Of a stretch of DNA of 33,128 nt, positions 9,503-26,762 are shown one piece after another. This DNA comes from Gallionella sp. (GTDB taxonomy: Bacteria > Pseudomonadota > Gammaproteobacteria > Burkholderiales > Gallionellaceae), in assembly GCA_030700315.1 (NCBI GenBank), contig JAUYJO010000018.1, positions 1 through 33,128 of the forward strand, written 5' to 3'. The notes beneath the pieces were generated by a model. That model was not told the DNA's origin. It worked only from the letters and a program-made list of their open reading frames with translations, and ran no database searches. Made by a program: the position numbers and the translations under genes. The stretch's first letter is position 1. Every line of letters begins with the position of its first letter.

Positions 9503-11425
9503 ATGGATGTCGCAGAAAGCCCAATACTGGCCCGCATGAAAATCGCCAACCGCCTGCCCGCGCCGAAGGGGGTGGCGCTGGAGGTGATCAACCTGACGCA
9601 GCGCGAGGAAGTGTCCAATCAGGATATCGTCCGGCTGATCGGCGTCGATCCGGCGCTGAGCATGCGGGTCATCAAGGCGGCCAATGTGCTGCTCACCAAT
9701 CCTTCCCGGCCAATTGCGACCATCGCCGATTCTGTCACGGTGCTGGGAGTGCATGCGCTGCGCCAACTGGTGCTGGGCATCGCGCTCATCGTGGATTATC
9801 GCCACGGACCCTGCAAGCAGTTTAACTACCCGCATTTCTGGGCGCATTCGCTGTTGACCGGTATCGCCGCGAAACATCTGGCGGCACGCACACGGCTGGC
9901 TGTTTCGGAGGAAATTTTTGTGCTGGGGTTGCTGGGCAACATCGGGCAGCTTGCCTTGGCCACGGCGTATCCCGCAGAGTATGGCGAGATGCTCGAACAG
10001 GTGCGGGGCAAGACGCTGGAAGAACTGCGCCAGATGGAGCGCGATAAATTTGAGTGCGACCAGGCGGAGTTGAGCGAGGCGATACTCGCAGATATGCGTT
10101 TCCCCAAAATCTTTCAGACGCTGGCGCATGATTTTCGCCAGCCCGATTCCAGCAAAATGGCCGAGGGCTCGCGCGAGTGGCGGCTGCTGCATATATTGCA
10201 TGTCGCCTCGCTGTTGGCGGACGCGTGCCTGGCGAGCCCTGCGGAGCGCGGCGGATTGGTGGCGAAGCTGAGGCTGTACGCCGCGCGCGTGGCGATCGAG
10301 AAGGATCACCTGGTCGAGATAGGTGATGCCTGTGTGCATGACTGGCTGGAATGGCTGGAATTGTTGAATATGAAGATGGTGCATATCCCGCCGTTTGCGG
10401 AGCTGTTGAGCCAGTCGGAGACGGCGGATTCGTCGGCTGAGTTGTCGCAATGCGCCTATGCCAATCAGACAGATTACAAAATGCGCGTGCTGGTGGTTGA
10501 GGACGACCGCGCCATGCTGGTGTTGCTGGAAGCCATGCTGAAGGCGGCCGGCCATGAGGTGTTGACGGCGCGCAACGGCGTGGATGCGCTGGGGATTGTC
10601 GAGCGGCAGCGTCCGCAGCTGGTCATTACCGGATGGACGTTGCCGGAGATGGATGGCATTGCGCTGTGCCGCAAATTGCGCGAAAGCCCGGAACGGCGCG
10701 ATGTGTACGTGATCATTCTCACCGCGCAGGAAAACGTGGATATGCTGGTCGAGGCGTTCGATGCGGGCGCGGACGATTATCTGGTCAAGCCGGTCGCGCA
10801 GAAGATTTTTTTCGCGCGCCTGCGCGCCGCGCAGCGGGTGGTGCGCTTGCAGGAGGAGCTGGCCTTCGACCGCGAGCAGTTGCTGCGTTTTTCCAAAGAC
10901 CTGGCGGCATCCAACGAGCGTTTGCAGCGGCTGGCCTTGACCGATGCGCTGACCGAATTGCCCAACCGCCGCTTGGCGATGGAGCGTATCGAGCAGGAGT
11001 GGGCAATGTCCAAGCGCGGCGACCGGACCTTGTCATGTTTGATGGTGGACGTCGATCACTTCAAGCCGATCAATGACAAATTCGGCCATCAGATAGGCGA
11101 CGAAGTGCTGAAGATCATCGCCGACACCTTGCGCAAGTCGGCGCGCGCGCAGGATGTGGTATGCCGCTATGGCGGGGAAGAGTTTGTCGTGATTTGCCCG
11201 GATTCCGCCATCGATGCGGCGTATCAATGCGCCGAGAGGCTGCGCCTGAGCGTGGCGGCGCTGAAATTCAAAAATCAGGGGGTGGGTATCGGCCTGACGA
11301 TCAGCGTCGGCGTGGCGCAGAAGAAAGAGGGCATCGCGTCGATAGATGAATTGCTGAACCGCGCTGATGAATGTTTGTATGCGGCAAAACAGGGCGGGCG
11401 AAACCGGACGGTTTGCGCAAAATAA
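9503..11425 (+). CDS. HDOD-REC-GGDEF diguanylate cyclase with degenerate receiver
   Basis: The protein has 640 residues with three domains. Residues 1 to about 290 are an HDOD domain (ILARMKIANRLPAPKGVALEVINL, VDPALSMRVIKAAN), a non-catalytic HD relative used in signalling. Residues about 327-445 are a receiver (MRVLVVEDDRAM, LVKPV), but the phospho-acceptor Asp is replaced: LVITGWTLPEMDG has Gly377 where Asp is expected. Residues about 475-640 are a GGDEF domain with GGEEF at 557-561 and an RAQD inhibitory site at 548-551, so it should make cyclic di-GMP and be feedback-inhibited. Loss of Asp377 means the receiver probably works without phosphorylation. GGAGCAATCCG precedes the ATG. Its place next to flhDC and motAB suggests a role in the swim-or-stick decision (inference). 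Confidence 0.88.
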   Translation: MDVAESPILARMKIANRLPAPKGVALEVINLTQREEVSNQDIVRLIGVDPALSMRVIKAANVLLTNPSRPIATIADSVTVLGVHALRQLVLGIALIVDYRHGPCKQFNYPHFWAHSLLTGIAAKHLAARTRLAVSEEIFVLGLLGNIGQLALATAYPAEYGEMLEQVRGKTLEELRQMERDKFECDQAELSEAILADMRFPKIFQTLAHDFRQPDSSKMAEGSREWRLLHILHVASLLADACLASPAERGGLVAKLRLYAARVAIEKDHLVEIGDACVHDWLEWLELLNMKMVHIPPFAELLSQSETADSSAELSQCAYANQTDYKMRVLVVEDDRAMLVLLEAMLKAAGHEVLTARNGVDALGIVERQRPQLVITGWTLPEMDGIALCRKLRESPERRDVYVIILTAQENVDMLVEAFDAGADDYLVKPVAQKIFFARLRAAQRVVRLQEELAFDREQLLRFSKDLAASNERLQRLALTDALTELPNRRLAMERIEQEWAMSKRGDRTLSCLMVDVDHFKPINDKFGHQIGDEVLKIIADTLRKSARAQDVVCRYGGEEFVVICPDSAIDAAYQCAERLRLSVAALKFKNQGVGIGLTISVGVAQKKEGIASIDELLNRADECLYAAKQGGRNRTVCAK

Positions 11426-13011: not shown

Positions 13012-13866
13012 ATGTTGGTAATCATCGGTTATGTGGTGGTGTGTTTCTCGGTGTTCGGCGGCTTTGCCATGGCCGGTGGTCATCTTGGTGCGCTATTACA
13101 GCCGATCGAGTTGTTGATGATCGGTGGGGCCGCAGTGGGCGCTTTTGTGGTCGGCAATACCAGCAAGGTGACCCGGGCGACGCTCAAGAGTTTGCCTAAA
13201 ATCCTGAAAGGGCAAAAATACAACAAGGCGGACTACATGGAGTTGATGGCCTTGCTGTATGAGCTGCTGAACAAGGTGCGCAAGGAAGGCTTGATGTCCA
13301 TCGAAGGCGATGTGGAAGTGCCGGCAGAAAGCGCGCTTTTCGCCAAATACCCCAAAGTGGCCAACGATCATCATGTGGTCGAGTTCATGACCGACTATTT
13401 GCGCATCATGGTCAGCGGCAACCTGAACGCGATGGAAATCGAAAATCTGATGGATATCGAAATTGATACCCATCACCATGAAGAAATGGTGCCTTCCCAT
13501 GTGATCGCTAAGCTGGCAGATGCGATGCCGGCTTTTGGTATTGTTGCGGCGGTGATGGGGGTGGTGCATACCATGGAGTCGGTCGGCATCCCGCCTGCCG
13601 AGCTGGGGATATTGATCGCCCACGCGCTGGTGGGCACCTTTCTGGGCATCCTGCTGGGTTACGGGTTTATTGGCCCGCTGGCCACGCTACTCGAACAAAA
13701 ATCCATGGAAGGCACCAAGATATTCAATGTTATCAAGGTGACGCTGCTGGCCAACCTTAACGGCTACGCGCCGGCAATGGCGGTCGAATTCGGCCGCAAG
13801 GTGCTGGATTCCACCGAGCGTCCGGGTTTTGCCGAGCTGGAAGAGCATGTCAAACAAAAGCGCTGA
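13012..13866 (+). CDS. motA: Flagellar stator protein MotA
   Basis: The protein has 284 residues. It has four membrane segments: the N-terminal LVIIGYVVVCFSVFGGFAMA, a second at about 30-47, and a pair at about 170-225 (MPAFGIVAAVMGVVHTM and LGILIAHALVGTFLGILLGYGF). The large cytoplasmic loop with LLYELLNKVRKEGLMSIEGDVE carries the Arg/Glu residues that contact FliG. Together with MotB it forms the proton-driven stator. AGGAAACGCGGGC precedes the ATG. motB follows, but with 130 bases of repeat between them rather than the usual few. Confidence 0.95.
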   Translation: MLVIIGYVVVCFSVFGGFAMAGGHLGALLQPIELLMIGGAAVGAFVVGNTSKVTRATLKSLPKILKGQKYNKADYMELMALLYELLNKVRKEGLMSIEGDVEVPAESALFAKYPKVANDHHVVEFMTDYLRIMVSGNLNAMEIENLMDIEIDTHHHEEMVPSHVIAKLADAMPAFGIVAAVMGVVHTMESVGIPPAELGILIAHALVGTFLGILLGYGFIGPLATLLEQKSMEGTKIFNVIKVTLLANLNGYAPAMAVEFGRKVLDSTERPGFAELEEHVKQKR

Positions 13867-13993
13867 TCAGAAGACAGAAAACAGGGGACAGAAGACAGAT
13901 TGTCGTGTGCCGCTGCGCGGCACACTATATCTGAGAACGCGGCGCTGCCGCGACAACACCTCTGTCCTCGGTCTTCTGTCTTCTGTCCTCTGA
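13867..13993. repeat. 127-bp repeat element between motA and motB
   Basis: The ends are AGAAGACAG / CTGTCTTCTGTCCTCTG inverted repeats. The core is GTGCCGCTGCGCGGCAC followed by AACGCGGCG.. CCGCGACAACA. A nearly identical copy lies in reverse orientation at 22356-22482. It begins right after the motA stop and ends 3 bases before the motB ATG. Confidence 0.75.
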
Positions 13994-13996
13994 ATC

Positions 13997-15019
13997 ATGT
14001 CCGACGACAAAAATAAAAAACCGATTGTCGTAAAGCGTGTCAAGAAGATCGCGGGCATGGCTCACGGCGGCGCGTGGAAAATTGCCTATGCCGACTTCGT
14101 CACGGCAATGATGGCGTTCTTCCTGCTGATGTGGCTGCTCGGTTCGACCGCAAAGGGTGATCTGGAGGGGATTGCCGAGTATTTCAAAACGCCGCTTGCG
14201 GTGGCGTTGTCCGGTGGCACGACGGCGGGCGATACCACCAGCATCCTCAAGGGCGGCGGCCAGGATCTCACCCGGGCGGAAGGGCAAGTCAAGCGGGGTG
14301 AAACTCCGCCCGAAAGAAAAATCATCACCCTCAAAGATGCCAAGCAGGCGCTTGAGCGCATCCAGCGCAAGGAGGAAATTGCGAAGCTCAAGCAACTGAA
14401 AGCCAGCATCGAGAAAGCCATCGAGAGCAGCCCCAAGTTGCAGCAATTCAAGAAGCAGATCCTGCTGGACATCACCAGCGAAGGGTTGCGCATTCAGATC
14501 GTGGACGAAAAGAACCGCCCGATGTTCCAGATCGGCAGCGCGGAACTTGAGCCTTACACCCGGGAAATCCTGCATGAAATCGGCAAAATGTTGAACGAAG
14601 TGCCCAACAAAGTGAGCATTTCCGGCCACACCGATGCGGCTCTTTATGGCGGGGGGGCGGCGGGGTACAGCAATTGGGAGTTGTCGGCAGACCGTGCCAA
14701 TGCTTCGCGCCGCGAATTGATTGTGGGCGGCATGGCGGAAGAGAAAATTGTCCGCGTGGTGGGTTTGTCTTCAGCCGTGTTATTCAAGAAAGAGGAACCG
14801 CTCAATCCGGTCAATCGCCGCATCAGCATGATCGTGATGAACAAGAAGGCGGAGGAGGCGGCCAGTCGTGATGGCGGTACGGTCGGCGAGGAGCCCGCCG
14901 AGGACGATGCGGAATCCAACGGAACTGGCACGCAAGAGGGGCAGGCGGGGGCGCAACAAGACATCAGCCCGCAAAATGCGGATGCGGCGTCTGCACCACC
15001 GGCAACGCCTCGGCCTTAA
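13997..15019 (+). CDS. motB: Flagellar stator protein MotB
   Basis: The product has 340 residues. A single membrane segment (IAYADFVTAMMAFFLLMWLL) carries the essential proton-binding Asp33. The C-terminal OmpA-like domain (about 170-285) anchors the stator to peptidoglycan: ISGHTDAALYGG, NWELSADRANASRRELI and NPVNRRISMIV. A longer than usual acidic, Ala-rich tail follows (about 290-340). No ribosome site precedes the ATG because the repeat element abuts it, so expression may depend on motA translation or on weak initiation. Confidence 0.95.
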   Translation: MSDDKNKKPIVVKRVKKIAGMAHGGAWKIAYADFVTAMMAFFLLMWLLGSTAKGDLEGIAEYFKTPLAVALSGGTTAGDTTSILKGGGQDLTRAEGQVKRGETPPERKIITLKDAKQALERIQRKEEIAKLKQLKASIEKAIESSPKLQQFKKQILLDITSEGLRIQIVDEKNRPMFQIGSAELEPYTREILHEIGKMLNEVPNKVSISGHTDAALYGGGAAGYSNWELSADRANASRRELIVGGMAEEKIVRVVGLSSAVLFKKEEPLNPVNRRISMIVMNKKAEEAASRDGGTVGEEPAEDDAESNGTGTQEGQAGAQQDISPQNADAASAPPATPRP

Positions 15020-15275: not shown

Positions 15276-16901
15276 ATGAAAAACTGGTGGAGCAGGCTCT
15301 CGTTAAAAAGCAAGTTTCAGATACCCATCCAGCTTACCTTGCTGATTGTTCTTGTGTTGGCGCAACGCGCCGCATTGGACGAGTTCAAGGAGCGCACACT
15401 GGAAGAGGCGCGGCAAAAAGCGGTTGTTTCTGCTGATGGTGTGCTGAACGGGTTGAACATGCTGATGCTCAACGGCATCATCGGCGATTCCGCGCAGCGC
15501 GAGCTGTATGTCAAGAAAATGGGCGCATCGGACAGGATGCTCAATTTGCGCGTCATTCGCGGCAAGCCGGTGGCGGATCAATACGGGCAAGGAGTGCCGT
15601 CCGAGCAGGCGGCAGATGAAATGGATCGCGCGGCGCTTGCGTCCGCCAAAGAACAGAGCCAGTTGTCCGAACAGAACGGCGTGCCATCTCTGCGCGTCGT
15701 CGTGCCGTTCATTGCCAAAAAAGATTTTCGCGGCACCGATTGTCTGATGTGCCACACCGTGCCGGAAGGCGCTGTGGCCGGTGCGGTCAGTATCACGCTG
15801 GATGTCTCCGATGAATTCGAGTTGATGCACAACGCGAATTGGGTCATGTGGGGTGTGCAGGGCGTCATTCAGGTTTTTCTGTTTTTCGTGATTGGCTGGC
15901 TGATCAGCTTCGTTATCAGGCCGACACGCGAGCTGCAGCAGGCAATGCTGATGATGCAGGCCGACGGCGATTTGACGAGGCGCGTGACGGTGCGCAGCGA
16001 AGACGAAATCGGTCAAACCGCCGCCGCTTTCAATAAACTGATCGACGGTTTTGCCAACATCATCCGCCAGGTGCTCGTCCATGCCGGTACGGTGTCAAGC
16101 ACCGCCGAACAATTGCACGTCTCATCCTCGCAAATCGCGCAAAGCTCGCAGGTGCAGAGCGAGGCGGCTTCTTCCACGGCGGCGGCGGTGGAGCAGATCA
16201 CGGCGAGCATCAGTTCGGTCGCCGCCAGCACCGGGGAGGTGCGCAAGTTGTCCGAAAAAAGTTTGAGCCAGACGCAACAGGGCAACCAGAATGTGACTGA
16301 AATGATCAGCGAAATCCATAGTGTGCAAGAGGCGGTCAATCAAATCGCCGGTTCGGTGAAGGAATTTGTCGACAGCACCCGTGCCATTGCCGGCATGACC
16401 CAGCAGGTGAAGGAAATCGCCGAGCAGACCAACCTGCTGGCCTTGAATGCGGCGATCGAGGCGGCGCGTGCCGGGGAGCAGGGGCGCGGTTTTGCGGTGG
16501 TGGCGGACGAAGTGCGCAAGCTGGCGGAAAAGTCTGCGCAGTCGGCCAATGAAATCGACCGGGTGACCAATTCGCTGAACCAGAAATCCACGCATGTCGA
16601 AGAAACTGTGCTAGCGGGCTTGCGCTCGCTACAGATGACGCAGGAGCATATCGAGCGGGTCTCGGTCGTGCTGACCGAGGCGGGCGAGTCGGTTACAAAA
16701 GCCAGCCACGGCGTGAGCGACATCGCCACTTCGGTGGGCGAGCAGAGCCTGGCAAGTGCCGAGATCGCGGCTCATGTGGAGCAAATCGCACATATGTCGG
16801 AAGAGAATCATGCGGCGGTGGAATCGAATACCCGGGACATCGTGCGCCTGGAGCAGTTGGCCCATGAATTGCAGGCTGCGGTGAGCCGGTTCAAGGTGTA
16901 G
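15276..16901 (+). CDS. Chemoreceptor with periplasmic haem-c sensor
   Basis: The protein has 541 residues. It has a membrane segment at about 15-30 and a periplasmic domain at about 31-189 ending in [14 protein letters not shown] (C156, C159, H160), a haem-c motif. A second membrane segment follows (about 190-214, [16 protein letters not shown]), then HAMP (about 215-267) and a full MCP signalling hairpin ([38 protein letters not shown]). Similar haem-c periplasmic sensors occur in Geobacter receptors and respond to redox state. It should feed CheA from the state of the periplasmic electron pool. The ATG at 15276 follows ACAGGGAG; the earlier in-frame start at 15162 gives an unlikely extension. 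It resembles the next receptor in the sensor part. Confidence 0.88.
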
Positions 16902-16955: not shown

Positions 16956-17062
16956 GCTATGCAAAGCTATCGCGCCATTTTTTGGTACGCAAATAGATTT
17001 AGGTGCGATAACTTGTGCCCCTGCAAATTGCAGGTTAAAGAATTTTCGGGAGAAAACCGGTC

Positions 17063-19141
17063 ATGCAAAACAAAAATGCCTATGTTTCACAAAAAGAAAA
17101 GCCATTTCCGGCGAATGGCGTGCTTGTCTCGAAAACCGACATCAAGGGTATCATCACCTACGCGAACGATGCGTTCGTGGAAATTTCCGGCTATTCGCGC
17201 GAAGAGCTGGTCGGCAAGAGCCACAACATCGTGCGCCACCCGGACATGCCGCCGTCGGCCTTCAAATGGTTGTGGGATACGCTGAAAGATGAGCGCCCAT
17301 GGCGCGGCGTAGTCAAGAACCGCTGCAAAAATGGCGACTACTACTGGGTGCGAGCCACCGTCGCGCCGATTGTCGAAAACAGCAAAATTACCGGTTACGT
17401 ATCGGTACGCAAAGCCCCGACCCGCAACCAGATTGCCGAGGCGGACGCGCTGTATAAGGAGTTGAACCAGTCCGGCGCGCAGGTCGTGTCGAAATACGAG
17501 CGTTTCAAGTTCCAGAACTGGTCGCTGAAGGCCAAATTGCAGTTCATGATTCAAGCCACGCTCATCGTGGTTCTGGCTACCGCACAATTTTTTGTTTCCG
17601 CAGACCTCCGGGAAGAGCCGAAAAAACTGGCGATTGAAAAAGGCAAGCAGCTTGCCAATGAAATCATCGATGGCGCCAATATGCTGATGGTGGTCGGGCA
17701 ATACAGCGAGGCGGGCAACCGCAAGCTGTTAATGCACAAGGCCAGTTCATCGGCCGGAGTCAAGTCCGCACAGTTGGTCCGCACCAAGACCGTGGCGGAC
17801 TTGTATGGCCCAGGCCTGCCGGAAGAGCAGATCAAGGACGACGCGCAACGGCAGGTGATCGAGAGCAAGAAACAAAGTGTCACGTTCATGAGCGACGAGA
17901 GTGGTGCGACAGTTTTGCGGGTAATCACCCCCTATCTGGCGAGCAAGGATTTCCACGGCACCGACTGCACGGGATGCCATGCGACGCAGGAAGGCACGGT
18001 GCTCGGCGCTTCGGATGTGGTGATCAACATGACATCGGATAGCGCCAGAGTTGAGCGCATGGAAATGATGATGCTGGGCGGGCAGCTCGGGCTGCAAGTG
18101 TTCCTGTTCTTCTTTATCGGCTACTGTGTCGACAGGTATGTGCGCCGCCCGGTTCGTGCCGTAAGGAACGAGTTCAGAAATATCATGGAAGGCAATCTCG
18201 ATACCGAGCTGGATATTTCTATTCAAGATGAAATGGGGTCGCTGCTGTGCGAAATCCAGACCATGCAATGCTATTTGCGCACCATGGTGGACGAGATCGC
18301 CACGCCGGTGGGGCTGATGCAGCAACGCATCGTGGATATGGATGCCAGGGTGTCCAGCGTGGCGGACAATGCGGCGGGCGAGCAGGATCACATCCAGCAG
18401 ATTGCCAGTACCATGGAGGAATTCAGCCAGTCTATCGCCGAGGTGGCGAGCATGGCGGCGGATTCGCTCAGCGATGCGCGGGCGATGCAGGAAATCATCA
18501 ATACCAACGCCGACCGGATGCAAGGCCAGATCAATCCCGCCATGGGCAAGGCCATGGATACGTTGCAGTCTTCCAGCACGACGATTGCCGATCTCAGTTC
18601 TGCCATCCAGAAAATCGGCGTGATTGCGAACGCCATCAAGGATATCGCCGAGCAGACCAACCTGCTGGCGTTGAATGCGGCGATCGAAGCGGCGCGCGCT
18701 GGCGAGCAGGGGCGCGGTTTTGCGGTGGTGGCGGATGAAGTGCGCAAACTGGCGGAGCGCACCGCGACCAGCACCAAGGATATTGCCGGCACCATCGGCG
18801 AAATTAACGCCATCTCGGACGCTGCCGTAAGGTCCATGCAAGGCGCGATAACCGATGTCGAAGCCGGGGTTACGCTGGTTCACCTGAACAGCGAAGGGCT
18901 TAAAAAAATCCGGGGCGCAATGGTCAAAGTGGACGAGCGCATGGAGCACATTGCCACCGCATCGAGAGAGCAATCTGCGGCGAGCGAGAGCGTGGCCAAC
19001 AGCCTGGAGCATGTCACCAGCCTGGTGGATCACAATACGCAATCCGCCAGGGATGCCAAGCTGGCTGCGGAAGAATTGGCCAGGTCGGCCAGTGATTTGA
19101 AAAAAGCCGGTTATCCGCTGACTAAATGCGCGATGGGGTAA
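17063..19141 (+). CDS. Aer-like PAS plus periplasmic haem-c chemoreceptor
   Basis: The protein has 692 residues. The N-terminal PAS (about 15-125) is close to E. coli Aer: [52 protein letters not shown] binding is therefore likely. Then follow TM1 (about 161-178), a periplasmic domain with [13 protein letters not shown] (C302, C305, H306), TM2 (about 338-357), HAMP, and a signalling hairpin ([27 protein letters not shown]). So one receptor carries two redox inputs, a cytoplasmic flavin and a periplasmic haem. Standard Aer has no periplasmic domain. The ATG at 17063 follows CGGGAGAAAACC. It sits 160 bases after the sister haem receptor, and their sensor domains are clearly related, which suggests duplication followed by gain or loss of the PAS. 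Confidence 0.88.
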
Positions 19142-19290
19142 GTAGAGGGCAGGGGGTGAGTGTGGTTGGTTTGTTGCGTGAGGGTAGCCGCGCATAACAA
19201 GGTATCGCGAAAGGATGAAAGGCAAATGCAAGGGCAGTCTTTGAAAATACCCGGGAAAATAACGGGGAAAATAACCGGGCAGGAATGGCA

Positions 19291-19809
19291 ATGAAAAGAT
19301 TGATTACGCCGACTTCTGTTGAACGGGTGATGCGCGAAGACGATTTCATCGTTTCCATGACAGACCCGAAAGGCCGTATCAGCTATGGCAACCGGACTTT
19401 TATCGAATTTTCCGGCTACAGCGAGGCCGAGTTGCTTGGCTCACAGCACAACATCATTCGCCATCCTGATATGCCCCGAGCCGTGTTCAAGTTGCTGTGG
19501 GACAAGATCCAGAACAAAGAGGAATGTTTTGCCTATGTGAAAAATATGTCCAAGGATGGCGGATTTTATTGGGTGTTTACCAATGTCACGCCGAATCTGG
19601 ACGTGAGCGGAAATATAACGGGTTATTTTTCGGTGCGGCGCAAGCCAAAGTTGAGCGGCATTCAGGCTGTTACCGGACTGTATGCCGCCATGCTGGCAGC
19701 GGAGAAAAAAGCCGGGTCGGCCAATGCCATAGCCGCTGCCACCGCGGTGCTGGTGGATTTGTTGAAAGAAAAAGGACTCAGCTATGACGAACTCGTCCTT
19801 GCAATTTAA
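19291..19809 (+). CDS. Stand-alone Aer-like PAS protein (CetB-like)
   Basis: The product has 172 residues and is almost entirely one PAS domain: [77 protein letters not shown]. The motif [10 protein letters not shown] is that of Aer, so it probably binds FAD. It has no membrane segment and no signalling domain. The ATG at 19291 has AGGA at the right distance; the ATG at 19285 is too close to it. It overlaps the next receptor by 26 bases. This mirrors Campylobacter CetB, which passes its signal to the receptor CetA. Confidence 0.82.
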
Positions 19810-21253
19810 GTTTTCTGCGCTGCTCTGGTCGTTTTCTTTCGGGATGCTGACCATCATCCTGACCAGTTTCTGGTTGCATGGGGTGGATTTTTTTATGTTG
19901 GGCTTTCTGGTGGTCGGCGTGGCCGTGTCGGCATGGGGGCAATGGCTGGCAAGGTGCTGGCTGGCGCCGCTGGGCAAGTTGAAGTTTGCCGTTGACCATG
20001 TTGCGCAGGGAAAATTTAACAGCCGGGTGACCGGCATAGCCGAATCCCATGACGAGATCAGCATGTTGTGCTGGAGCGTGAACGATATGCTGGATCAGCT
20101 AAGTGTCATGTTTCGCGAGCAGGAATCGAGCTTCAGCGCCAACCTGAAAGGCAACTTTTACCGCACAGCGCTAAGCGGCGGAATGCACGGCGAACTCAAG
20201 AAAAACCTGGATAACCTGAATGTGTTGTTGAAGGAAATGGAAAAGCAGAAAATTGGCGCCATGCGCACCCAATTGCTGTCGCGCGCGCACTCGCTCAATA
20301 CCGATAATCTGCTGAAAAACCTGACCTCGAACCAGCAGGACATGAAGGTGATCTCGGACAACATGGACCAGTTGGCAAGCCTGTCCAGGCGCACCCGGGA
20401 AGATGCGGAGGAAAGCCGCGAATCGGTCAAGGAGGTGGTGCAAAAACTGACCGGCATCGTCGAGCGGGTGAACCACGCCAACGCTGCCATTGAGAATTTG
20501 AACGCGCGCAGCTCGGAAATCAACAAGGCGGTCGGACTGATTAACTCGATCGCCGACCAGACCAATCTGTTGGCCTTGAATGCGGCGATTGAAGCGGCGC
20601 GTGCAGGCGAGGCCGGGCGCGGCTTTGCGGTGGTGGCGGATGAAGTGCGCAAGCTGGCCGAGAACACCAAAAAAGCCTCGGAATCTATCGGCAGCGTCAT
20701 GAAGATGCTGCAAAGCGAGGCGGCTAAAATGCTCGATGATTCGCAAGAGATGCATGCGATAACCCATTCTTCGCAGGGGGTCATCGGGCAGCTAGAGCAG
20801 AAATTCGGACAGTTTTACGAGTCTGCCGTGACCACCCTGTCGGGGGCGCGTTGTGCGAAAGACCTTAGCTTTGCCTCGCTGGTCAAAGTGGATCACATTA
20901 TTTACAAGCAGCGTGCCTATGCGTTGATTAACGACCCCGGCAACGGCGAGTTCAAGAACGCCGTGGACGTCGATCACCACGGTTGCCGCCTGGGCCATTG
21001 GTATGAGGGCGAAGGTAAAGAAGTGTTCGGCAATTCGCCTTCATTCCGCTCTTTGCTGTCACCGCACAGCAAGGTTCATGAAAGTATGCAGATCATGGTC
21101 AGGCAGTTGGACCAGGGCTGGGAGCGCAATCCCGCAGTGCAGGACAGTATCTGCGACGCGCTGGATGATGCCGAAAAAGCCAGTTTGGACTTGATGTGCA
21201 TGATGGATCAAATTGTTGCGGACAAACATCCGCAAATGGGTAAGGCAGCATAA
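19784..21253 (+). CDS. Chemoreceptor, CetA-like, with C-terminal CZB zinc domain
   Basis: The protein has 489 residues. Two membrane segments lie close together (about 8-27 and 30-50) with almost no periplasmic part. A HAMP follows (about 55-105), then the signalling hairpin ([28 protein letters not shown]). The C-terminal domain (about 365-460) is a CZB zinc-binding domain: VDHIIYK (H371), [10 protein letters not shown] (C401) and HSKVH (H428, H432). It lacks a sensor domain, and the upstream PAS protein probably supplies it. CZB domains respond to zinc or hypochlorite through Cys oxidation, so the pair could combine flavin and thiol redox inputs. AAAGGACTC precedes the ATG, inside the PAS gene. 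Confidence 0.88.
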
Positions 21254-21413: not shown

Positions 21414-22355
21414 ATGTCGGACCTACTGAGAAATATCGATGCCCGCACCAAACTGGCGGGAACCAACAAGCTGGAGATACTGATGTTCTCGCTTGGCCTG
21501 GATAACCGCACCGGGCGCGAGGAAACCTTCGGCATCAACGTGTTCAAGGTGCGAGAAGTGATGCGCATCCCGAAAATCACCCGCGCGCCGGAAATGCCAG
21601 CGTCGGTGGAAGGCATGGTGAGTTTGCGCGGGGCATTGGTTCCGGTGGTTGATCTGGCCAAATACACCGGGATTCAAACCGATGAGAAGGCGGAGATCAT
21701 GATAGTCACCGAGTACAATGGCCATACTCAGGGCTTCCTGGTCAAGGCGGTGGACAATATCCTGCGCCTGGATTGGGCGGCGATGCGCGTCCCCCCGGCG
21801 ATGCTGGTAGCCGAATTGGGCGGGTTGGTCACGGCGATTACCGAATTGAAGGATGGCCGTCTGGTGATGATGCTGGATGTGGAGAAGGTGCTTTCAGAAA
21901 CCGGCCATTTCGATACGAACGAACTTATTTTCAAGGGCGTCAAGCCGCTGGGCAAGGATCGCACGGTGTTTTTTGCCGACGACTCTTCGGTGGCGCGCAA
22001 CCAGATTAGCCGTACACTCGATGCGATGCAGGTCAAGCATATCTCGGCAATTAACGGTCGTCAGGCATGGGACGAGTTGTCGAAGATGGCGGATTATGCC
22101 GATGCCTCGCATACGCCGCTCAAGGATATCGTGCAGGTGATACTGACCGACGTGGAAATGCCCGAGATGGATGGTTATATGCTGACGCGCAAGATCAAGT
22201 CGGACAAGCGTTTTGCCGGCATTCCGGTGCTGATGCATTCGTCGTTGAGCAGCACATCCAACCAGCAGCTCGGCAAGACGGTTGGAGTGGACGAGTATGT
22301 GCCGAAATTTGAACCGCAGAAGTTGTCGCAGACCTTGGCGCGGTTGTTGGCTTAA
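21414..22355 (+). CDS. cheV: CheV coupling protein 1 (CheW-REC)
   Basis: The product has 313 residues. The CheW-like domain (about 15-165; LEILMFSLG, FGINVFKVREVM, MVSLRGALVPVVDLAKY) is joined to a receiver (about 178-313; VFFADDSSVARNQI, LTDVEMPEMDG with Asp246, VPKFEPQKL). CheV links receptors to CheA, and its phosphorylation is thought to tune adaptation or drain phosphate. AACAAGGAGAAAAA precedes the ATG. The second cheV follows after a repeat element, and the two are clearly paralogous. Confidence 0.93.
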   Translation: MSDLLRNIDARTKLAGTNKLEILMFSLGLDNRTGREETFGINVFKVREVMRIPKITRAPEMPASVEGMVSLRGALVPVVDLAKYTGIQTDEKAEIMIVTEYNGHTQGFLVKAVDNILRLDWAAMRVPPAMLVAELGGLVTAITELKDGRLVMMLDVEKVLSETGHFDTNELIFKGVKPLGKDRTVFFADDSSVARNQISRTLDAMQVKHISAINGRQAWDELSKMADYADASHTPLKDIVQVILTDVEMPEMDGYMLTRKIKSDKRFAGIPVLMHSSLSSTSNQQLGKTVGVDEYVPKFEPQKLSQTLARLLA

Positions 22356-22482
22356 CAGAGGACAGGGGACAGAAGACAGAAGACAGAGGTGTTGTCGCGG
22401 CTGCGCCGCGTTCTCAGGTATAGCGTGCCGCGCAGCGGCACACGACATCTGTCCTCTGTCTTCTGTCCTCTGTCATCTGATT
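22356..22482. repeat. 127-bp repeat element, inverted copy between the cheV genes
   Basis: It is the reverse complement of the element at 13867-13993 apart from a handful of changes. It starts immediately after the cheV1 stop and ends before the TTAAGGAGG of cheV2. The pair brackets 8.4 kb (motB to cheV1) as inverted repeats. Confidence 0.75.
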
Positions 22483-22495
22483 AAGGAGGAAGATA

Positions 22496-23443
22496 ATGAC
22501 ATACACGGAAGACATGCTGGGCAACGAACAGGACGGCTTGCTGAATCATGTCGATGCGCGCACCAGTCTGGCGGGTACCAACAAGATGGAAATCTTGTTG
22601 TTCAGCCTGGGCAGCAACGAGAAATTCGGCATCAATGTGTTCAAGGTCAAGGAGGTTTGCCAGGCTGGCAAGATCACGCGCACACCGAACATGCCGGCCG
22701 GAGTGGACGGCATCGTGTCGTTGCGCGGGCATGTGATGCCGGTGCTGAATATGGCAAATTTCATGGGCATCTACCCGGCTGAAAAATACCACACCATGAT
22801 GGTGGCGGAATACAGCAATCACATCCTGGGCTTTCTGGTGAAAGATGTGGATCGCATCATCCGCGTGGACTGGGACAAAGTGCGCGCGACGGAAGGGATG
22901 CTTTCCGACAAGGGCGCGCTGATCACCGCGATTACCGAGTTGCCTGACGGTACGCTGATTTCGATCCTGGATGTGGAGCAGATCCTGGCGAACGCGTTTG
23001 GCGATGACATCGTCGGGAATGTCGAGCGCGTGCAGTCGGAACATGATTTGTGTATTTTCTTTGCCGACGACTCGATGGTGGCGCGCAGAAAAATTGCCGA
23101 AGTGCTGGATAAAATGGGCATCAAGCATATTCAGGCAGCCAACGGGCTGGAGGCATGGGACAGGCTCAAGGCGATGGCGGATACGGCGCAGAGCACCGGG
23201 GCAAACCTGCACGACCAGATTCAGGTGATCCTGACCGATGCGGAAATGCCGGAGATGGATGGCTATGTGCTGACACAAAATATCAAGTCAGACCGCCGCT
23301 TCGACAGCATACCTGTGGTGATGCATTCTTCGCTTTCCTCCGATGCGAACCGCGCGATGGGGCGCCGCGTCGGGGTGGATCATTATGTGCCAAAATTTGA
23401 TTCGATAGTGTTGTCGTCAACACTGCGGCCGTTGTTGACATAA
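22496..23443 (+). CDS. cheV: CheV coupling protein 2 (CheW-REC)
   Basis: The protein has 315 residues. CheW-like part: MEILLFSLGSNEKFGINVFKVKEV and GIVSLRGHVMPVLNMANFM. Receiver: IFFADDSMVARRKIAEVL, LTDAEMPEMDG with Asp248, VPKFDSIVL. TTAAGGAGGAAGATA precedes the ATG. It shares its N-terminal DARTSLAGTNK with cheV1 (DARTKLAGTNK), so the pair arose by duplication. The receiver insert between its helices (TAQSTGANLHD) is a feature of both. It leads into cheYZA. Confidence 0.93.
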   Translation: MTYTEDMLGNEQDGLLNHVDARTSLAGTNKMEILLFSLGSNEKFGINVFKVKEVCQAGKITRTPNMPAGVDGIVSLRGHVMPVLNMANFMGIYPAEKYHTMMVAEYSNHILGFLVKDVDRIIRVDWDKVRATEGMLSDKGALITAITELPDGTLISILDVEQILANAFGDDIVGNVERVQSEHDLCIFFADDSMVARRKIAEVLDKMGIKHIQAANGLEAWDRLKAMADTAQSTGANLHDQIQVILTDAEMPEMDGYVLTQNIKSDRRFDSIPVVMHSSLSSDANRAMGRRVGVDHYVPKFDSIVLSSTLRPLLT

Positions 23444-23464
23444 CAGAAGTTGAAGAGGGAAGTG

Positions 23465-23551
23465 AGAAGGGTGAAGGGTGAAGGGTTAAACCCTTGAGCA
23501 CCGCAGGTGCGCTCCCTCATCCCTTGAGCGCCAGAGGCGCGAACCCTTCAC
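23465..23551. repeat. Structured spacer between cheV2 and cheY
   Basis: GTGAAGGGTT (23478-23487) pairs with AACCCTTCAC (23542-23551). Inside, CCCTTGAGC occurs twice, each time followed by a small hairpin (CACC..GGTG and GCGCC..GGCGC). The left flank has the short tandem GGTGAA. Confidence 0.55.
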
Positions 23552-23571
23552 GGGTTATTTAGGAGCTTGAT

Positions 23572-23970
23572 ATGGGAATAGAAGGTACAAGATTTCTGGT
23601 GGTGGATGATTTTTCCACAATGCGGCGCATCGTGCGCAACCTGCTCAAGGAGCTCGGCTTTACGAATGTCCAGGAAGCGGAAGACGGGGTGGAAGCCTTG
23701 GCCAAATTGCGCGCGGATACATTTGATTTCGTGGTGTCCGACTGGAACATGCCCAACATGACAGGTATCGAGTTGCTGCGTACGATCCGTGCGGATGAGA
23801 AACTCAAGCACCTGCCGGTGCTGATGGTGACGGCTGAGGCGAAGAAGGAAAACATCATCATGGCGGCACAAGCGGGCGCGAGCGGCTATGTGGTGAAGCC
23901 GTTCACGGCCGCTACGCTGGATGAAAAATTGAAGAAAATCTTTCAAAACTTCCCAAATTTACAAAAGTGA
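23572..23970 (+). CDS. cheY: Chemotaxis response regulator CheY
   Basis: The product has 132 residues and is very close to E. coli Che[35 protein letters not shown] with Asp57, [14 protein letters not shown] (Thr) and [12 protein letters not shown] (Lys). Phospho-CheY binds FliM and switches flagellar rotation. TTTAGGAGC precedes the ATG. The next gene starts within its stop (GTGA overlap), so it is coupled with cheZ. Confidence 0.96.
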
Positions 23971-24701
23971 GTGATGCCATGACAAGTAATACTGCAAGCG
24001 GGGATTCCGATGATCTCGAAGCATTGTTCGACAGCATCGTGGCCGCCAATGCCAACGAAGCAGACCCCAATTGCGCGGTTGCCGGCAATAGCCCCGAGAC
24101 GGGCAAAGTGATCAACCAGATCGGGCATATGGCGCGCAAGCTGCATGACACCTTGCGCGAGCTGGGGCTGAACAAGGAAATCGAAAAGGCGGCCGCGTCG
24201 ATTCCGGATGCGCGCGACCGCCTGAATTATGTCGCGACCCTGACGCAGCAGGCTGCGGAGAAGGTGCTGAATGCGACCGATGCGGCGCAGCCGATTCTGG
24301 AAAAAGTGGAAGTCGAATCGCATCGCCTGGCGGGGCAATGGCACTTGCTGTTCGAGAAAAAGCTGGACGTGGCGCAGTTCAAGGAACTCGTCATGCAAAC
24401 CCAGGCTTTCCTTCATGAAGTGCCCAAGCAGACCAAGGCGACCAATGCCCATCTGATGGACATCATGATGGCGCAAGACTTCCAGGATCTGACCGGGCAA
24501 GTCATCAAGAAGATTATCGAAGTGACGAAACACATGGAACAGCAACTGGTGTCGCTGTTGCTGGAAAATGCGCCGCCTTCGGTCAAGGCAGAATTCGATG
24601 CGGGGCTGTTGAACGGCCCGGTCATCAATGCGGCGGGGCGATCTGATGTGGTGACCAACCAGGATCAGGTGGACGACTTGCTGGAAAGTTTAGGTTTCTG
24701 A
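23967..24701 (+). CDS. cheZ: CheY-P phosphatase CheZ
   Basis: The protein has 244 residues. The catalytic helix [17 protein letters not shown] is present, with Gln173 equivalent to E. coli Gln147. The C-terminal CheY-binding tail [13 protein letters not shown] is intact. It forms a long four-helix dimer and removes phosphate from CheY. The GTG at 23967 overlaps the cheY stop; an ATG at 23979 is the alternative start, and neither has a strong ribosome site. It is coupled with cheY and precedes cheA, the order seen in the gamma/beta 'F6' systems. Confidence 0.94.
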
Positions 24702-24773
24702 GCATGAGGATTATCTACAACAGCAGCCTAGCCCTTCCTCCCGCACCGGACGGCTCCGCCGCACCGTGTCGGA

Positions 24774-24805
24774 ATGGCGACTTGCTGAAAAGTTTGGGGT
24801 TCTGA
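24774..24805 (+). pseudogene. Duplicated tail of cheZ
   Basis: NGDLLKSLGF and a stop repeat the last codons of cheZ (DDLLESLGF). The DNA match is about 31 bases with five changes, 104 bases downstream of the original. The stretch between (from 24702) is unrelated and non-coding. It may mark an insertion with duplication. Confidence 0.5.
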
Positions 24806-24813
24806 AGAATAGC

Positions 24814-24868
24814 GTAGGTCGGGCTTCGGCCCGACACGGCACCAGCGTCGGGCTGAAGCCCGACCTAC
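24814..24868. repeat. REP pair before cheA
   Basis: GTAGGTCGGGCTTCGGCCCG and the inverse GTCGGGCTGAAGCCCGACCT form two opposed hairpins. They lie directly upstream of the cheA ribosome site (GGGAG), so they may influence cheA translation. Confidence 0.7.
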
Positions 24869-24881
24869 TTGGGAGAATGAA

Positions 24882-26762
24882 ATGAACGATTTTGCTGGCA
24901 TGGAAGAGTTGTTGAGCGATTTTTTGCTGGAGGCGGGCGACATGTTGTCCGAAGTGGACAGCAAGCTGATGGATCTGGAAAAACGTCCCAATGACAGCAA
25001 CCTGCTCAATGAAATATTTCGCGGCTTTCACACTATCAAGGGCGGCGCGGGGTTTCTCAACGCAACGGAACTGGTGACGCTGTGCCATCTCACCGAAAAC
25101 CTGTTCGACAAATTGCGCAACCGCGAATTGACCCTGAGCGCCGAGCTCATGGACGTGATTTTTGCGGCAACTGCCGAGGTGCGCAGGATGTTTAGCTCGC
25201 TGCAACAAAACTATCAGCCCAGTGCGGCTCCAGCGGATATTCTGGATAATCTGAAGGCGGCGTTGAGCGGACAGGCGGTTGCGGTCAAGGCGAAAAACCA
25301 GCCCGCCAGCCCGGCTCCGAGCGCTGCGGCCAAAGGTGCCCAGATGGCAGCAGGTGCTCAAACGTTGGGCGTGCAGGGGGCGGATGGCGTGGACTGGGAT
25401 GCCTTGTACAAGGCGCTGACCGGTGGCACCGATATCGTGGAAACGGTGGGCGCGACGCGCGATCCGGAAAAAATTGCCGATGCAATATCCGAAGAAGAAT
25501 CCACCAAAAAGGCATTTGGCCGACGTACCAGCGATGCGCCGGGCGCCACGGTCGGTCGGCGCGATGGCGACGTCCCGGCCAAAGAGGCCAAGGAATCAAC
25601 GATCCGCGTCGACACTGATCGTCTCGATCAGGTGCTCAATCTTTCCGGCGAAATCGGCCTGACCAAAAACCGCCTGACGCATTTGCGTTCCGACATTTTG
25701 CAGGGGCGCAACGATGCGGACGTTTTGCGCGATCTCGATCAATCTGTCACGCAACTGGATATGCTGGTGGTGAATTTGCAGAACGCGGTGATGAAGACGC
25801 GCATGCAGCCGATCGGGCGTCTGTTCAAAAAATACCCGCGCCTGGCGCGCGATCTGGCGCGGCAACTGGGCAAGGATGTGGAGCTGGTGCTGATCGGTGA
25901 AGAGACCGAAATGGACAAAACCATGATCGAGGATTTGAACGATCCTCTGGTGCATCTGGTGCGCAACGCGGTGGATCACGGCGTGGAAACCATCGAAGCG
26001 CGCATCGCCGCCGGCAAGCCGGAAAAAAGCCTCGTGGAGTTGAGCGCACGCCAGGAAGGCGACCATATCCTGATTACCATCGCCGACGACGGACGCGGCA
26101 TGCGCCCCGAAGTGATCCGCAACAAGGCGATCGAAAAGGGGCTGATCACCAACGAGATGGCGAACACGCTGGATGAAAACCAGTGCCTGGAACTGATTTT
26201 CCTGCCGGGCTTTTCCACCAAGGACGAAATCTCCAGTGTCTCCGGGCGCGGCGTCGGCATGGACGTGGTGAAAACCAATATCCAGAAACTGAATGGTGTT
26301 GTCGACATCCACTCAGAACCGGGCAAGGGGACCGTGCTGACCATTTCCTTGCCGCTCACGCTGGCGATTCTGCCGGTGCTGATTTTGCGCCTCGGCGATC
26401 AATCCTTTGCCGTGCCGCTGTCGATGGTGCGGGAAATTCTGTCCATTACCCCCGATCAGTTGCAGCAAGTCTCCGGCAGGGCGACCATGGTGGTGCGCGG
26501 CGAAGTGCTGCCGGTGTTGTCGCTGGCGCAGTTGATCGGCTGGGAGCAGAGCGTCAATCCGGAAGTGGGCGTGCTGATGCAGTTCGGCAACAACAGTTTC
26601 ATCCTGTCGGCAGACGGCTTTGCCGGGCACGACGATGTGGTGATCAAGTCGCTGGATACCTTCCGCCCCAAAGGCGTGGCGGGTGTGACCATGTCCAGCG
26701 AAGGCGACATTGTGCTGATTCTCGACATCAAAGAGCTGCTCAGCGACGTGCGCGGGCATTGA
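24882..26762 (+). CDS. cheA: Chemotaxis histidine kinase CheA (F6-type system)
   Basis: The product has 626 residues. The P1 domain carries the phospho-acceptor His50 in FHTIKGGAGFL. A long Ala/Pro-rich linker follows, then the dimer domain P3 (about 235-300; VDTDRLDQVLNLSGEIGLTK). The kinase domain P4 has HLVRNAVDHG, ADDGRGM and SGRGVGMDVV. The CheW-like P5 forms the C-terminus. A recognisable P2 is not seen in the linker. It phosphorylates CheY and both CheV proteins. GGGAGAATGAA precedes the ATG, 13 bases after a REP pair. It follows cheYZ in the same direction and is likely the main flagellar kinase. Confidence 0.95.
   Translation: MNDFAGMEELLSDFLLEAGDMLSEVDSKLMDLEKRPNDSNLLNEIFRGFHTIKGGAGFLNATELVTLCHLTENLFDKLRNRELTLSAELMDVIFAATAEVRRMFSSLQQNYQPSAAPADILDNLKAALSGQAVAVKAKNQPASPAPSAAAKGAQMAAGAQTLGVQGADGVDWDALYKALTGGTDIVETVGATRDPEKIADAISEEESTKKAFGRRTSDAPGATVGRRDGDVPAKEAKESTIRVDTDRLDQVLNLSGEIGLTKNRLTHLRSDILQGRNDADVLRDLDQSVTQLDMLVVNLQNAVMKTRMQPIGRLFKKYPRLARDLARQLGKDVELVLIGEETEMDKTMIEDLNDPLVHLVRNAVDHGVETIEARIAAGKPEKSLVELSARQEGDHILITIADDGRGMRPEVIRNKAIEKGLITNEMANTLDENQCLELIFLPGFSTKDEISSVSGRGVGMDVVKTNIQKLNGVVDIHSEPGKGTVLTISLPLTLAILPVLILRLGDQSFAVPLSMVREILSITPDQLQQVSGRATMVVRGEVLPVLSLAQLIGWEQSVNPEVGVLMQFGNNSFILSADGFAGHDDVVIKSLDTFRPKGVAGVTMSSEGDIVLILDIKELLSDVRGH

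Follow-up and report, generated by a model that had tools for sequence, protein, structure and literature searches.

A candidate dual-input chemoreceptor of Gallionella that joins an Aer-type PAS domain to a periplasmic Cache domain with a haem-c motif

The stretch of DNA analysed here, referred to as the window, consists of 33,128 nucleotides from Gallionella sp. (contig JAUYJO010000018.1 of assembly GCA_030700315.1), and the gene under study is a chemoreceptor gene located at positions 17063-19141 of the forward strand. The open reading frame (ORF) is unbroken from an ATG to a stop codon and encodes 692 amino acids; a GGGAG sequence, a likely ribosome-binding site, is found ten bases 5′ of the ATG (17048-17052). 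The ORF, Pfam and hydropathy analyses give a protein with the order PAS, first transmembrane segment (TM1), sCache domain with a haem-c motif, second transmembrane segment (TM2), HAMP and methyl-accepting chemotaxis protein (MCP) signalling domain. The Aer-type PAS domain occupies residues 18-116 (17114-17410), where Pfam identified PAS_3 at 32-115 (E 3.5e-19). Hydropathy and an AlphaFold2 model place TM1 at residues 161-179 (17543-17599) and TM2 at residues 335-353 (18065-18121), flanking a 155-residue periplasmic domain (residues 180-334, 17600-18064), and in the model TM1 is part of a predicted helix, residues 155-210, that extends into that domain. This model, which covers residues 1-351, has a predicted template modelling score of 0.51, and the placement of the domains relative to each other was not used. 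HAMP is found at residues 358-402 (18134-18268), with a Pfam score of 24.1 bits against a cut-off of 25, and the MCP signalling domain at residues 495-654 (18545-19024; MCPsignal, E 5.2e-44). All NCBIfam equivalogs scored far below their cut-offs on the receptor, except for the general sensory_box domain. A preliminary description of the gene, made from the DNA alone, had reported an Aer-like PAS, a periplasmic CXXCH motif at C302/C305/H306, HAMP and MCP domains; all are present and the residue numbers are correct, with HAMP falling just under the cut-off.

The first 148 residues of the receptor were compared with proteins of known structure, and the best matches were the E. coli Aer structures 31cj (E 4.2e-43, alignment spanning residues 4-137) and 8dik (E 7.8e-43). 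Weaker matches to other PAS proteins followed, MmoS (3ewk, E 5.9e-31 over two stretches) and NifL (2gj3, E 7.2e-17). The PAS domain also includes the stretch NGDYYWVRA. Seven contacts with flavin adenine dinucleotide (FAD) are named for Aer, namely T27, H53, R57, M69, W70, N85 and R115, in the available text of PMC9668731. When these were mapped by alignment to the Aer structure, five of the seven were kept (H53, R57, W70, N85 and R115, which correspond to H54, R58, W71, N86 and R116 of the receptor) and two were changed (T27 to K and M69 to L). Four more Aer residues that we take to be important for FAD, N34, H58, D60 and W79, are kept as N35, H59, D61 and W80. To follow these positions in relatives, a set of 36 distinct full-length fusions was used, which remained after removal of 11 duplicates and of 2 copies that were cut or partial. 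All of the kept flavin-pocket residues are identical in the 36 fusions, except R116, which is found in 35 of them. The PAS domain of the receptor is thus likely to bind FAD, as far as can be judged from its residues.

The only CXXCH motif of the receptor is the CTGCH at residues 302-306 (17966-17980), located between TM1 and TM2. A chance origin was ruled out: when the loop 180-334 was shuffled 20,000 times, a CXXCH arose in only 3 cases, and all 36 distinct fusions share C302, C305 and H306. An AlphaFold2 model of the periplasmic domain, built on a 24-row alignment, has a mean predicted local distance difference test value of 88.8. Its best VIA-align matches were single Cache domains, led by WalK (4ywz, Z 14.0, 128 residues aligned with a root-mean-square deviation of 2.5); Tll0287 (5b82), a haem protein, matched with Z 9.9 and a deviation of 3.6 over 122 residues; GSU0582 and GSU0935 were absent from the structure-match lists shown, which do not exclude families outside them. 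The model has strands at 58-65, 97-102 and 108-117, a helix at 127-131 and a strand at 138-147 (domain numbering), and the CXXCH helix precedes the last strand, between strands 3 and 4. The sCache_heme domain is described with its CXXCH helix at the same place, before the last strand, in the available text of PMC12889525. The periplasmic domain is, according to the model, a Cache domain by predicted fold that is divergent by sequence.

This divergence is apparent in the profile searches. PF11845 was found in 9 of 24 aligned members of profile A1 (best E 0.0059) and, at the stricter E of 0.01, in 3 of 42 members of profile A3; PF21563 was found in 4 of the 24 (best E 1.5e-05). A search of the Protein Data Bank with profile A1 gave only cytochrome-motif and chance matches, and the 42-member profile A3 gave a whole-domain match to GSU0582 (3b47, E 0.0017). 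Eleven columns are invariant in the 42 A3 sequences: N206, M209, R220, K226, R240, G249, P290, C302, C305, H306 and G315. Met209 (17687-17689), the proposed distal haem ligand, is invariant in the 36 fusions as well, and it aligned to chain residue 26 of both 3b47 and 3b42 (GSU0935). According to the available text of PMC8396549, the CXXCH histidines of this Geobacter pair are His143 and His144, and Met60 is an axial ligand in one haem of the GSU0935 dimer. If the histidine of the motif, which is chain residue 109 or 110, equals His143 or His144, then chain residue 26 is Met60. Since Met209 aligns with Met60, ligation of the haem by His306 (proximal) and Met209 (distal) is a specific prediction for the receptor.

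The distribution of the fusion was assessed with a scan of genome contigs, using six peptide patterns, and with profile searches. The complete fusion with the CXXCH in place was found at 16 loci (L011-L026) among the best 80 of 590 places, in records titled Gallionella, Sideroxydans, Candidatus Ferrigenium, Gallionellales, Burkholderiales or Proteobacteria bacterium. An assembly artefact was ruled out, as the identical architecture occurs at these 16 loci and in many further genomes. With the PAS-plus-periplasm profile, A2, between 5 and 17 candidates were scored in each genome, and with A1, in the class search, 12, so that the counts are lower bounds. Within the family, which is Gallionellaceae judging by its named relatives, at least 55 of 120 sampled genomes had an A2 match at E 1e-100 or better, one of which (G037) begins only at position 62. 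Within the order, the match extended from position 4 or before to position 349 or beyond in at least 18 of 300 genomes, spread over three families (seven in f1, eight in f37 and three in f42). At E 1e-80, a threshold that could miss more distant fusions, only the Gallionella genome itself matched among the 369 of the class sample, and only this genome and another of the same family (G001) among the 398 of the phylum sample; both samples contain some members of the order. The periplasmic profile alone matched at least 83 of the 120 family genomes and at least 42 of 274 class genomes. Twenty-nine class haem-domain loci outside the own genome, part of the matches, were examined: all 29 have the CXXCH and none has an Aer-type PAS. 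Conversely, none of the 70 Aer-PAS ORFs of L027-L090 has a CXXCH. Each half is widespread, while their joint occurrence in one protein is, as far as sampled, particular to a single lineage group. Among 17 aligned fusions, identity to the receptor in the N-terminal 351 residues is as low as 51 percent. Another genome of the same genus (G068, 2.9 Mb) has 13 matches to the haem Cache profile, an expansion of this domain.

The origin of the fusion was addressed with trees of the separate domains, obtained by quick searches with Shimodaira–Hasegawa-like approximate likelihood ratio test (SH-aLRT) support, midpoint rooting and flagging of long branches. In the tree of the signalling module (111 rows, including 22 of the 36 fusion rows and the receptor itself), the fusions are inside a 44-row clade together with Aer receptors and Aer receptors that have a TarH/4HB domain (SH-aLRT 99). 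The members of this clade are mostly betaproteobacteria according to the record titles, and the haem MCPs of Gallionellaceae fall outside it; the single row labelled as haem MCP within the fusion clade (L010) is the receptor gene itself, cut at the end of the locus. A reduced tree of 29 hand-picked rows agrees with the larger one. Some features limit the reading of the signalling tree. The Aer rows are scattered (11 changes), so that receptors with this label do not form a single clade. Two of these rows (L060 and L064, left out of the reduced set) group with seven Gallionellaceae haem-MCP rows, three of which are copies of the window's own gene. The tree also does not resolve which group of the 44-row clade is sister to the fusions. 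The tree of the periplasmic domain has 65 rows; here 7 haem MCPs of the same family form the sister group of the 28 fusion rows (support 99), and the 30 others lie separately. The trees thus disagree by domain, the signalling module grouping with Aer types and the haem domain with haem MCPs, and therefore a domain was probably swapped. These trees are most simply read as an Aer-type receptor having probably taken up its haem domain from the lineage of the haem MCPs. The opposite course, a PAS joined onto the neighbouring haem MCP, is argued against by the position of the fusions' signalling module in a different clade from the haem MCPs. Receptors with an Aer-type PAS and a TarH/4HB domain (L027, L030, L042 and L063, and L065 below the cut-off) fit an exchange of the segment between TM1 and TM2.

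The receptor gene is surrounded by motility and chemotaxis genes. On the forward strand, motA and motB (13012-15019) are upstream of two receptors, an order kept in syntenic relatives, followed by a 541-amino acid haem-c chemoreceptor that has no PAS (15276-16901) and whose periplasmic domain is in the sister group of the fusions' domain, and then by the fusion. Downstream, on the same strand, are the partner chemotaxis genes, two CheW-REC (CheV-like) genes, cheY, cheZ and cheA (21414-26762). A cheV gene is downstream of the fusion in 11 of the 16 fusion loci (L011-L020 and L023), and an MCP with a related signalling part is upstream of it in 9 of those 11, with a haem domain in 5 (L017-L020 and L023); of the remaining two, L014 has motB in this place, and the sequence of L013 begins shortly before the fusion. 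No mot, MCP or cheV neighbours were seen in the flanks of L021, L022 and L024-L026, in a scan that leaves out ORFs of less than 150 amino acids such as cheY. The upstream MCPs of L011 (4086-5711), L012 (3318-4985), L015 (3249-4883) and L016 (3203-4924) share 70-80 percent identity with the window's 15276-16901 in the signalling part. They were rejected as haem MCPs since only this part matches, and they have TarH/4HB instead of the haem domain. Such a trade of periplasmic sensors at the locus parallels the swap proposed for the fusion. In both L018 and L019, motAB and cheV enclose a series made up of a haem MCP, the fusion and two more MCPs; of the latter, the one scanned per locus (L018 7679-9298 and L019 7063-8715) has TarH/4HB.

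Other genes of the window and of its genome were recorded. Downstream of the fusion, a lone Aer-like PAS protein of 174 amino acids (19285-19809) overlaps the start of a receptor with two transmembrane segments, HAMP, MCP and CZB domains (19784-21253); the arrangement is reminiscent of the CetB/CetA pair of Campylobacter, in which Aer is split. Neither of the two was the best match of any filter-passing ORF in the loci of the 16 relatives. Upstream of motA there is an HDOD-receiver-GGDEF protein (9503-11425) with an 80 percent relative in L014, and the ORF at 5401-7410 encodes TPR repeats and a sulfotransferase domain with an N-terminal SEC-C motif. On contig 200 of the same genome (L004 1474-3414), an Aer-like PAS is followed by hydrophobic segments at 173-191 and 365-383 and by a SpoIIE phosphatase domain. 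This is an Aer-type sensor attached to another output, with a likely periplasmic stretch between the segments. The genome also encodes three Cytochrom_C_asm proteins (c-haem assembly), a cbb3 oxidase and three Cytochrom_D1 proteins, one of them with an open frame of 550 amino acids. None of its three COX1-family proteins received the name NorB (eNOR was not searched), and one (L154) is a divergent COX1-like protein to which no specific name was assigned.

The match of the PAS to Aer, the kept FAD contacts, the Cache model, the profile match to GSU0582, Met209, the Cytochrom_C_asm proteins, the cbb3 oxidase and the motAB-cheV position of the gene support the reading that it encodes an Aer-type energy-taxis receptor with a haem-c sCache domain between TM1 and TM2 and with dual input. 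The cofactors and the function being predicted, we give this reading a probability of roughly 0.47. In the mechanism proposed, the cytoplasmic PAS would bind FAD and report electron flow at the inner membrane through contact with HAMP, as E. coli Aer does, and the periplasmic domain would hold a covalent haem with His306 as the proximal and Met209 as the distal ligand. A change in the state of the haem, which could be oxidation or the loss of Met209 to a bound gas, would shift the last strand, which is joined to TM2, and the long helix, which contains TM1 and has its end close to Met209, and hence HAMP. HAMP would then sum the cytoplasmic flavin and the periplasmic haem signals, and the MCP tip would drive the CheA, CheY and CheZ encoded nearby, steering the cells in gradients of O2 and Fe(II). 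The cofactors, the signals and the direction of taxis are those that we infer, and respiratory redox state is the favoured periplasmic input.

Several observations weigh against this interpretation. HAMP scores just below the Pfam cut-off, the periplasmic domain of the receptor has no Pfam match, the A3 match to GSU0935 (3b42, E 0.079) is not significant alone, and both the covalent haem and the FAD are predictions. The related Geobacter domains have potentials of -156 and -251 mV (PMC8396549). In our judgement, such potentials are low for the periplasm of an iron oxidiser, where the haem could stay oxidised unless its potential is retuned. In addition, a sCache_heme domain fused to a signalling module behaved as a sensor of nitric oxide (NO) and not of O2, according to the available text of PMC12889525. 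The preliminary description had proposed that a single protein could compare the flavin state with the cytochrome pool; this is plausible, with NO as a serious rival input for the haem half. A bolder reading, which we consider rather unlikely, is that the receptor combines, as a difference or as a sum, the redox states on the two sides of the inner membrane, with FAD reading the electron-supply side and haem c the acceptor or Fe(II)-derived cytochrome side. If true, cells would be guided by the redox difference along their respiratory chain rather than by any single chemical.

It is quite possible, although we hold it only tentatively, that the periplasmic half is an NO sensor while the PAS reads the energy state. 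NO would bind the haem, displace Met209 and signal flight from NO or denitrification intermediates. A 2026 preprint reports tight NO binding, and no stable oxy-complex, for the signalling-fused sCache_heme domain (PMC12889525), and in the Geobacter haem domains Met release is redox-linked and NO is bound, Met60 being displaced by NO in the reduced sensors (PMC8396549); however, the biochemistry in the available parts of these papers concerns domains other than the receptor's own subfamily. Nitrite and NO are described as major challenges for iron oxidisers (PMC10734462), and the 550-amino acid Cytochrom_D1 protein would fit a periplasmic, NO-making cd1 nitrite reductase (putative NirS). Yet a strong Cytochrom_D1 match is absent in 33 of the 55 fusion genomes (nirK was not searched). 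Across the 120 family genomes the association between the two is weak, with 22 having both, 33 the fusion only, 12 nir only and 53 neither (Fisher p 0.014, or 0.050 when three weaker genomes are added, relatedness being ignored in both cases).

An unlikely explanation is that only one half senses, its partner (haem domain or PAS) having a structural role or tuning its gain. The borderline HAMP score would agree with it, but across the 36 distinct fusions the haem-ligand and flavin-pocket residues show no or almost no variation, though identity over the N-terminal part is as low as 51 percent among the 17 aligned. Lastly, the haem half could sense oxygen or a small ligand directly, in a two-threshold aerotaxis receptor; the 1994 paper on DcrA, by its title, reportedly has that receptor sensing oxygen concentration or redox potential. 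Cache domains mostly bind ligands, but the one signalling-fused sCache_heme domain tested forms no stable oxy-complex (PMC12889525), and we regard this explanation as very improbable.

Read as an Aer-type receptor with two inputs, the gene bears on how neutrophilic iron oxidisers hold their position in opposing gradients of O2 and Fe(II), for which it is a testable candidate at the level of receptors, beside motAB and cheA. A haem Cache domain that apparently moved into an Aer receptor also offers a natural two-compartment sensor for studying signal integration by HAMP. A 2013 study records aer genes in two isolates, and at that time specific assays of chemotaxis were still lacking for Sideroxydans ES-1 and Gallionella ES-2 (PMC3770913); Aer is also recorded in two Ferriphaselus strains (PMC4643136). 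The 2023 Gallionellaceae pangenome lists, in its Table 1, a cluster 40 annotated as "Methyl-accepting chemotaxis sensory transducer with Pas/Pac sensor; Aerotaxis receptor", with one haem motif and present in 43 of 87 iron oxidisers, and a cluster 152, an MCP with one haem motif present in 54 of 87 (PMC10734462). Cluster 40, known only as this table entry, is very probably the receptor described here, an identification made from the entry and not from sequences. The preliminary description had treated the architecture as uncommon. It is, as far as sampled, confined to one lineage group, with both halves well formed and kept together, but it was very probably listed already. In the literature searched, which mostly does not cover subscription papers, no description of the function of an Aer-type PAS combined with a periplasmic haem c was found.

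Compared with known systems, the receptor resembles E. coli Aer (31cj, 8dik) in its N-terminal PAS with most of the flavin pocket and in an MCP signalling module that groups with Aer types, its HAMP being borderline, and differs in the 155-residue haem-motif domain between TM1 and TM2; E. coli Aer is not known to have a periplasmic sensor domain. The generalisation that Aer lacks such a sensor, made in the preliminary description, holds for the E. coli protein but not for the type, as five Aer-PAS proteins chosen for their long PAS-HAMP gap all match TarH/4HB, one of them below the cut-off. These receptors (L027 Crenobacter, L030 Dechloromonas, L042 Pseudothauera, L063 and L065) share the order PAS, periplasmic domain and HAMP, and the first three are nearly equal in length to the receptor; in contrast, their periplasmic domain is a helical bundle that has no CXXCH. 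DcrA of Desulfovibrio vulgaris was compared by description only; its PAS presumably follows the haem domain and is not Aer-like. DcrA does combine haem c in the periplasm with a PAS in the cytoplasm within a single chemoreceptor, with the difference that its PAS, which has no haem, is proposed to serve output (PMC8396549). The statement that haem-c receptors normally have no Aer PAS agrees with the 29 class loci and has to be qualified by DcrA. A protein of another iron oxidiser, Mariprofundus erugo (L065 2489-4882), has a periplasmic haem-motif domain, HAMP, a linker that looks like a PAS by eye, HAMP_2 and MCP, possibly a DcrA-like arrangement. The periplasmic half shares with GSU0582, GSU0935 and sCache_heme (DUF3365/Tll0287) the periplasmic Cache fold (predicted for the receptor), the CXXCH and the aligned distal Met. 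The Geobacter proteins differ in having a periplasmic haem domain, two transmembrane segments, HAMP and MCP with no PAS in front (PMC8396549), and sCache_heme in that the receptor's domain is divergent and gives no Pfam match. By its sequence, then, the receptor is best described as a derived variant of the Aer type and not as a canonical Aer topology, a lineage-specific variant in freshwater iron-oxidising bacteria that is built from two known sensor types.
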